Virus record (IMG/VR): IMGVR_UViG_3300028394_000001
Location: 1 to 64,000 of that record
DNA from: a virus
Direction: 5' to 3' (one strand)
Length of the DNA: 64,000 nt
A program made the translations under genes and the position numbers. The notes under the pieces were generated by a model, which searched no databases, was not told where the DNA came from, and worked only from the letters and a program-made list of their open reading frames with translations. Shown here piece by piece: positions 43,176-44,187 of the stretch (positions within the stretch are counted from its first letter, which is position 1; each line of letters starts with the position of its first letter).

Positions 43176-43249
43176 TGGGGCATTGTGTAGTGATAGCACA
43201 GGAGACTTTGAATCTCTTAGTCTAGGTTTGATTCCTAGTGCCCCTGCCA
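43176..43249 (+). tRNA. tRNA-Gln(TTG)
   Basis: 74 bases with CCA. Anticodon loop CTTTGAA, T-arm CTAGG TTTGATT CCTAG, unpaired 1-72 as is usual for Gln tRNAs. The D-loop is short and lacks a clear GG. Confidence 0.8.
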
Positions 43250-43387
43250 TATTGAAACATATTTTAAAATCCAGTAACTTTCTAGCACGTCCGGCCGGCA
43301 ATCTAGAAAGCAACCCGTAGAGGGGTAAGAGTCGAAAGAGTGATGGATAATCGGCGGTGAGAATCCGCAGAAAGTGTGTTTCAATAT
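43249..43387 (+). ncRNA. closed-stem structured RNA of about 139 nt
   Basis: An 11-bp perfect closing helix ATATTGAAACA/TGTTTCAATAT joins the ends. Inside are a perfect 8-bp hairpin CTTTCTAG/CTAGAAAG (43278-43285 with 43303-43310) whose loop contains the palindrome CCGGCCGG, an ACC/GGT mini-stem and GCGG/CCGC at about 43353-43368. There is no ORF. No known RNA family is recognised. Confidence 0.6.
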
Positions 43388-43438
43388 GGTAATGTTATCT
43401 GCAGGTAGCATCCATACTGGGGAGTAATTGCCCTCAGG

Positions 43439-43513
43439 AACTCGTAGTCTTCTAGTGGTAAGAAGCCCCATTAAAGGGGTGAACACAGGTTCGATTCCTG
43501 TCTACAATGAGTT
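43439..43513 (+). ncRNA. tRNA-mimic RNA 1 (non-decoding)
   Basis: It has a D-arm (CTTC, loop TAGTGGTAA, GAAG) and a T-arm (ACAGG TTCGATT CCTGT), but the middle hairpin CCCC-ATTAAA-GGGG has a 6-base loop and no valid anticodon frame. The ends form AACTC-GTAG/CTAC-AAT-GAGTT with a 3-base bulge and no CCA. This is unlike a charged tRNA and resembles the tRNA-like module of bacterial Y RNAs; a decayed tRNA is the alternative. Confidence 0.5.
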
Positions 43514-43523
43514 TGCTATATAA

Positions 43524-43606
43524 GAACACATTGCATGCCTGACCGAAAAAGTCGTGGTAAACTACAAGAGAAAGAGGTTCGAATCCTCGGGACTGGTAGT
43601 GTGTTC
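43524..43606 (+). ncRNA. tRNA-mimic RNA 2 (no anticodon arm)
   Basis: A 7-bp terminal helix GAACACA/TGTGTTC encloses a D-arm-like AGT-CGTGGTAA-ACT and a T-arm GAGG TTCGAAT CCTC, separated by only about 10 bases with no anticodon stem. A second helix TGCC/GGTA follows the terminal one. D-loop GGTAA and T-loop TTCGAAT are intact, as in YrlA-type Y RNAs. No CCA. Confidence 0.5.
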
Positions 43607-43623
43607 CTATATGGTAAAATTTA

Positions 43624-44023: not shown

Positions 44024-44098
44024 GCTCCCGTCGTCTACTGGCTAGGACGCTGCCCTTTCAAGGCGGAGAAGACGGATCGAAACCGTTCGGGAGTACCA
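44024..44098 (+). tRNA. tRNA-Glu(TTC)
   Basis: 75 bases with CCA. Loop CTTTCAA; acceptor GCTCCCG/CGGGAGT; T-loop ATCGAAA is slightly atypical. Confidence 0.88.
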
Positions 44099-44174
44099 TA
44101 GATAAACGCATTACCTCATAAGCCTGTCGGTGAAAACTGCTGTTACGCTTTTTGAGACTGGTGTGTTTTTCTAT
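44098..44174 (+). ncRNA. closed-stem RNA after tRNA-Glu
   Basis: ATAGA/TCTAT and AAACGCAT/GTGTGTTT form a long terminal helix with one internal mismatch pair; inside is CTCA/TGAG. The 5' edge shares the last A of the tRNA CCA. No ORF and no tRNA-like loops are seen. Confidence 0.45.
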
Positions 44175-44187
44175 GGTAGTGTTATTT

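Follow-up and report, generated by a model that had tools for sequence, protein, structure and literature searches.

Two conserved, non-decoding tRNA mimics and a helical RNA scaffold with exchangeable inserts in a phage tRNA array

Results

Two additional RNAs within a phage tRNA array

The stretch of DNA analysed here (the window) comprises positions 1 to 64,000 of the 170,520-base virus record IMGVR_UViG_3300028394_000001, which comes from a freshwater bacteriophage and encodes a family B DNA polymerase. In the window, the region from 41.4 to 49.0 kb carries about 30 tRNA genes, two adjacent RNA elements that we call m1 and m2, a gene for a Ro-like protein, and members of two groups of structured RNAs that we termed family A and family B (Table 1). 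m1 and m2 are mutually unrelated, conserved tRNA mimics that do not decode. A first-pass annotation, made from the sequence without database searches, had placed two tRNA mimics here and had recognized their D-loop-like and T-loop sequences; their presence and location were read correctly, but the true units are larger than annotated and overlap by 6 nucleotides (nt).

Table 1 Elements of the tRNA array and their positions in the window.
Feature	Position	Strand	Description
Family B element upstream of m1	43245-43391	+	Helix takes in the tRNA-Gln CCA; 21-position arms
m1 unit	43393-43517	+	Conserved RNA of about 125 nt, two hairpins and a tRNA-like domain; covariance model R1, covariation
m1 leading hairpin	43393-43410	+	TGTTA/TAGCA; two-sided changes at 4/5 pairs in relatives
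m1 second hairpin	43417-43437	+	CTGGGG/CCCTCAG; 6/6 pairs kept in all relatives, 4 with two-sided changes
m1 tRNA-like domain	43440-43512	+	D arm, T arm and anticodon stem; acceptor split by an AAT bulge; no CCA
m2 unit	43512-43618	+	Family B scaffold element with tRNA-elbow-like insert; 23-position inverted repeat
m2 insert	43535-43595	+	GAC/GTC hairpin, invariant GGTAAACTA, T arm GAGG-TTCGAAT-CCTC; alignment A1
Family B element	44092-44180	+	Helix takes in the tRNA-Glu CCA; 22-position arms
Family A RNA	45113-45176	+	Lys-type anticodon stem-loop TTGAA-CTTTTAA-TTCAA
Family A RNA	45264-45325	+	Pattern and sequence check
Long family A RNA	47007-47136	+	Two T-loop-like hairpins; sequence
Family A RNA	47144-47200	+	In the leader of the Ro-like gene
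Ro-like protein gene	47219-48649	+	DUF2828 and DUF7788, phrog_850; Foldseek to Ro/TROVE structures
Family B element without insert	48675-48710	+	4-nt loop; downstream of the Ro-like gene; varied inserts there in relatives

Two hairpins open the conserved m1 unit, and its tRNA-like domain follows as the 3′ part. The domain comprises a D arm (CTTCT-AGTGGTA-AGAAG), an anticodon stem (GCCCC/GGGGT) and a T arm (ACAGG-TTCGATT-CCTGT). As the first-pass annotation had it, the terminal helix is bulged, with an acceptor (ACTC+GTAG/CTAC+AAT+GAGT) that is interrupted by AAT, and the middle loop consists of six bases, ATTAAA. The same annotation had denied both elements a usable anticodon arm, which is correct for m2 but only partly so for m1, where the anticodon stem is retained and the standard loop alone is lost. 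The length of this loop varies between 3 and 7 nt across six relatives, which have no anticodon in common, and m1 is therefore not a decoding tRNA. The possibility of a suppressor or otherwise special anticodon in ATTAAA was rejected because of the same variation in loop length.

The tRNA genes of the array encode the terminal CCA in 30 of 30 cases, including three genes missed by ARAGORN, whereas m1 and m2, as had also been noticed earlier, do not encode it, although it could still be added to them post-transcriptionally. ARAGORN called neither m1 nor m2 in the array. Scored as an ordinary tRNA with the Rfam model RF00005, m1 obtained 36.0 bits, less than any of the true tRNAs in the array (the lowest at 38.3 bits), and m2 was not matched at all.

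To describe the m1 family, a covariance model, R1, was built from two sequences. R1 distinguishes six family members (76–160 bits; L021 at 160, L159 at 93, L099 at 92, L145 at 85 and L101 at 76 bits) from ordinary tRNAs, which remain under 48 bits. All six sequences retain the acceptor that is split by AAT. Two-sided covariation is seen at 16 of 33 base pairs, with 97.9% of the cells paired, compared with 0–4 pairs in slid controls, these counts being biased somewhat towards the model to which the alignment was fitted.

m2 has a different architecture. It is closed by a 23-position inverted repeat and has no anticodon stem. The terminal helix that had been attributed to it is present, but it is a helix of about 20 bp and not an acceptor stem. 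A pattern scan of viral contigs found m2 in 16 stretches. Among 12 distinct sequences, the loops GGTAAAC (D-loop-like) and TTCGAAT (T loop) are invariant in 12 phages while the stems vary, 11 of 26 pairs show two-sided covariation (slid partners give 2–4), and 96.8% of the pair cells are standard pairs.

As covariation in both elements is far above that of shuffled and slid controls, the structures of m1 and m2 are not due to chance. The same data bear on the idea that the two elements are decaying tRNA pseudogenes, which would account for the missing CCA, the abnormal arms and the occurrence of single tRNA-like copies. The strong compensatory change, the invariant loops, and the retention of the AAU bulge and the lost anticodon in all six m1 sequences describe conserved elements and not decaying ones. 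We rejected the pseudogene explanation on the two-sided covariation of m1 and m2 and consider it extremely improbable.

m2 belongs to a family of helices with exchangeable inserts

The terminal helix of m2 is an instance of family B, a scaffold formed by a 17-bp helix. A search that required the 3′ arm AGTGTRTT and pairing at 15 or more of the 17 helix positions gave 315 distinct elements in the phage tRNA arrays of the examined loci, 72 of which were picked up in both orientations so that the independent number is somewhat lower. The helix has the consensus CCATATAAAAACACATT / AGTGTGTTTCTATATGG, in which position 8 is either an A-C mismatch or a G-C pair. The interior is highly diverse: the inserts fall into about 206 clusters, 153 of them singletons. 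In the window, m1 is directly flanked by family B elements on both sides, as it is in L021 and L159.

The exchange of inserts is best seen downstream of the Ro-like gene, where 27 loci carry a family B helix at the same site. Ten of these share one insert family, other loci contain at least seven further, mutually unrelated inserts, and seven records, including the window and the near-identical L001, have nothing but a 4-nt loop. The scaffold is thus constant, with its interior being replaced or lost. In a second family of family B inserts, the stems are likewise preserved by compensating changes.

Family B is tied to tRNA genes. These are present in 117 of the 118 contigs retrieved by the family B pattern, and 266 elements lie on the same strand as the nearest tRNA, compared with 34 on the opposite strand. 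Furthermore, in 136 of the 194 elements that have an upstream tRNA, the CCA of this tRNA constitutes the first three bases of the helix, an arrangement that is seen twice in the window (tRNA-Gln and tRNA-Glu). The exact pattern had no match in bacterial genomes (GTDB set).

Because the family B helix sits on the CCA, the main rival to a role of the insert itself is a tRNA-processing device, in which the CCA start would mark the 3′ end for cleavage and the insert would be incidental or would tune folding. Theta ribozymes, which are hepatitis delta virus (HDV)-like, are a precedent for phage RNA devices situated exactly at tRNA 3′ ends (PMC10879173). However, the inserts are sizeable and structured, and conservation is seen for single ones (m2 in 12 phages, and the second insert family), the scaffold is also found with no adjacent tRNA, as in the element downstream of the Ro-like gene, and m2 comes after m1 and not after a tRNA. 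We regard the processing function as rather unlikely. Family B elements were also considered as ribozymes or other known Rfam RNAs, and this was rejected: in a scan of the inserts of five element-rich loci, only tRNA-like families were matched.

A second alternative places the function at the level of DNA, with the helix representing the inverted ends of a cassette or mobile element and the insert being its cargo. Unrelated inserts do share one site, the arms are inverted, and TA is often found outside both of them. On the other hand, helix position 16 is a G-U pair in 66% of the elements and G-U is also found at several other positions, which favours a helix formed by RNA; moreover, the 266 to 34 preference for the strand of the tRNA, and the absence of any protein encoded inside, speak against a cassette. 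This explanation is, in our estimate, quite improbable.

The Ro-like gene is accompanied by Y-RNA-like RNAs of another family

The first-pass annotation had interpreted m1 and m2 as Y RNAs of the YrlA type and had linked them to a Ro-like gene further downstream. The gene is indeed Ro-like. PHROG annotates its product as an ‘RNA-binding protein’. The predicted model (mean pLDDT, predicted local distance difference test, of 70) displays a HEAT-like ring and a von Willebrand factor A (vWA) domain, and all six of its Foldseek matches at E < 1e-3 are Ro/TROVE structures. A DVSGSM sequence resembling a metal ion-dependent adhesion site (MIDAS) is present in the protein alignment. The Pfam TROVE profile PF05731 had no match in G001 and G002, whose genes are 100% and 95% identical to that of the window.

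The assignment of m1 and m2 to the YrlA type did not survive. YrlA, represented by the Rfam model RF02553, is a permuted tRNA with the order T arm, sealed acceptor, D arm. In m1 and m2, the D element precedes the T element and the ends are open, and RF02553 (gathering cut-off of 69 bits) has no match at either. For m2, the link to Ro fails too, as the element is present in phage records of 114 kb and 192 kb that have no Ro-like gene. Among 23 family B records, 18 are without DUF7788 and 22 without TROVE, where some records may be fragments, so that a missing Ro gene is not proof of its absence. Plainly, in these data, Ro linkage is not required for m2 or family B, and Ro as a general partner of family B was rejected since most family B records lack it.

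The earlier annotation was close to the real thing, however, as RNAs of YrlA topology do adjoin the Ro-like gene in relatives, and these are members of a different family, family A, which the Ro gene fits better than it fits m1 and m2. Family A RNAs consist of a closing helix, the sequence [AT]CAGCAA, an insert, the closing strand and TGTT, and a copy is found just upstream of many Ro-like genes of the examined loci. The best RF02553 scores in relatives (40.7 bits, below the cut-off) fall inside family A copies. Among cultured phages, those of Enterococcus (EFDG1), Klebsiella, E. coli (Felixounavirus), Mycobacterium and Cronobacter have sealed permuted tRNAs close to the Ro-like gene, and family A copies also occur in Aeromonas phage APT65 and Synechococcus phage BUCT-ZZ01. 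A descriptor run on 17 isolate regions gave 11 matches on the strand of the Ro gene, a few of them long and probably due to chance, none on the opposite strand and 0.8 in shuffles.

Many family A inserts are free anticodon stem-loops. In loci L001–L080, a perfect anticodon stem-loop, defined as at least 5 pairs, a 7-nt loop, U33 and a purine at position 37, is present in 75 of 123 short copies compared with 0.7% of mononucleotide shuffles, and the anticodons include those for Thr, Lys, Ser, Asn, Arg, Tyr, Cys, Phe, Pro, Asp and others. As the pattern scan gave many chance matches in coding sequence, with a paired copy in only 45 of 114 loci, family A counts are limited to copies with the closing helix and CTGTT. 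The closing helix is the only supported helix of family A; a pseudoknot of CAGCA with TGTTG is not claimed, since the helix it would form lacks covariation and is disrupted in several copies.

These findings leave little room for a function of m1 and m2 as YrlA-type Y RNAs that would gate or tether the Ro-like protein by binding to it. In its favour are a true Ro-fold gene at a distance of 3.6 kb downstream, reports of phage Y RNAs (Chen 2014, going by its citation in PMC12282133), and the family A RNAs of YrlA topology that adjoin Ro genes in relatives and isolates. Yet m1 and m2 are unpermuted, have no sealed acceptor, are not matched by RF02553 and do not contain the CAGCAA...TGTT motif of the Ro-adjacent RNAs, and m2 and its scaffold are found in long records without Ro. 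Because the topology differs and m2 occurs without a Ro gene, the YrlA reading fails for both elements. We rejected their membership on topology, covariance-model score and Ro linkage, and hold such a function to be quite unlikely.

Further unusual RNAs in the array and in other loci

Several other RNAs of unusual structure are found in the window. A CCA-bearing tRNA-like gene at approximately 46679-46771, called by neither ARAGORN nor Rfam, has an odd anticodon region and a long variable arm, and is conserved in dozens of relatives. The untranslated stretch of about 194 nt at 44604-44797 is 83–98% conserved in many relatives and is probably another structured RNA. A conserved 79-nt element at 44953-45031 has acceptor-like GCAGAC/GTCTGC ends and a terminal CCA, and no normal T or D arm. 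The flanks of tRNA-His (46296-46395) extend its acceptor helix to 21 pairs, its own CCA included.

In other loci, an insert of about 40 nt separates the D and anticodon arms of tRNA genes in Cronobacter phage S13 (L337:10895-11137) and Citrobacter phage Ci1 (L082:7891-8125). The sequence ACGCAAACTGA-AAGTTTGTATTCAGCA is common to both S13 copies and one Ci1 copy, and these genes are annotated as tRNA-OTHER or pseudo. Two-piece (permuted) transfer-messenger RNA (tmRNA) genes above the Rfam cut-offs are found in Synechococcus phage BUCT-ZZ01 (L083:3737-4137) and at L105:13913-14302, and a Group I intron is situated inside a phage tRNA array at L163:6439-6638.

Discussion

We give an even chance to the following proposal, in which m1 and m2 are conserved, non-decoding mimics from the phage tRNA array that act as decoys for tRNA-binding proteins. 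m1 would be a stand-alone RNA; its tRNA-like body, which follows two hairpins, is stripped of its CCA, of a continuous acceptor and of a usable anticodon loop. m2 is one of many interchangeable inserts on the constant family B helix of about 17–20 bp between tRNA genes. Both would be co-transcribed with the tRNAs, on whose strand they lie, and would probably be released through tRNA processing. They would then present the tRNA elbow (the D-/T-loop surface) while lacking both an anticodon and an end that can be charged, and could occupy a host protein that grips tRNA, for instance a defence nuclease that cleaves tRNA or an enzyme that modifies or degrades it, to which they would bind without serving as a decoding substrate.

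The decoy proposal is strengthened by the neighbouring family A, which displays free anticodon stem-loops, and by a proposal in the literature according to which an anticodon nuclease may be inhibited by YrlA (PMC7790460). Several points weigh against it. It names no target, whether for m1, for m2 or for the inserts of family B, and since these inserts are mostly not tRNA-like, ‘tRNA decoy’ cannot describe the scaffold in general. In m2, the contact between D-loop and T-loop is itself predicted from sequence. Finally, every relative of m1 and m2 is a metagenomic contig, and a blastn search with m1 and m2 gave no match among the cultured phages of the collection.

Constant scaffolds with variable modules, as in family B, resemble bait libraries. 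A wider and more tentative possibility is that phage tRNA arrays carry a modular RNA display system with exchangeable modules for anti-defence, exposing baits to host RNA-binding or tRNA-cleaving proteins. The constant helix opening on the CCA of a tRNA would be the display element, the elbow mimic of m2, the commonest insert found here, would be one of its modules, and m1, m2 and the stem-loop RNAs of family A would together form an evolving set of baits. If so, these RNAs would constitute an RNA arm of the phage–host conflict over tRNA and a natural set of ligands for tRNA-binding proteins. Even if they are not baits, standard annotation misses such RNAs completely, and some of the Y-RNA-like members are found in cultured phages. 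With regard to the question of why large phages maintain such long tRNA arrays, those described here contain, besides tRNAs, conserved tRNA mimics, free anticodon stem-loops in a Y-RNA-like frame and hundreds of different structured RNAs on a common helix that starts on the CCA of the tRNA.

m1 and m2 can be compared with several known systems. With tRNA (RF00005) they share the T arm, the GG of the D-loop and, in m1, a cloverleaf-like fold; m1 differs from it by its missing CCA, interrupted acceptor and anticodon loop of variable length without a fixed anticodon, and m2 by its missing anticodon arm and long terminal helix. The likeness to YrlA (RF02553) lies in a tRNA-like module that does not decode, in the combination of a constant stem with a variable module and in the Ro-like gene of the same array, whereas YrlA is permuted and sealed, m1 and m2 are unpermuted, open and unmatched by its model, and m2 occurs without Ro. 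ToxI and other antitoxin RNAs of type III toxin–antitoxin systems are likewise small structured RNAs that bind a nuclease, as m1 and m2 would, but here there is no toxin gene and no repeat array, and the fold is different. Phage tRNAs that escape anticodon nucleases by means of a changed anticodon loop (PMC10264068) are, like the role proposed here, a case of changed tRNA-like molecules set against tRNA-targeting defence; those tRNAs decode, however, and m1 and m2 cannot. Theta ribozymes share with family B the position exactly at the 3′ end of phage tRNAs, whereas family B has no ribozyme core (no Rfam ribozyme, theta/HDV-like core included, was found in the array of the window or in the five element-rich loci), begins on the CCA itself and has mutually unrelated inserts, its interior varying without limit. 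No Rfam family matched m1, m2 or family B, and no description of them was found in the open-access literature, most subscription papers being outside the scope of that search. tRNA mimicry and Y RNAs are already known kinds of RNA; a scaffold with exchangeable inserts, if a function could be demonstrated for it, would represent a new category.
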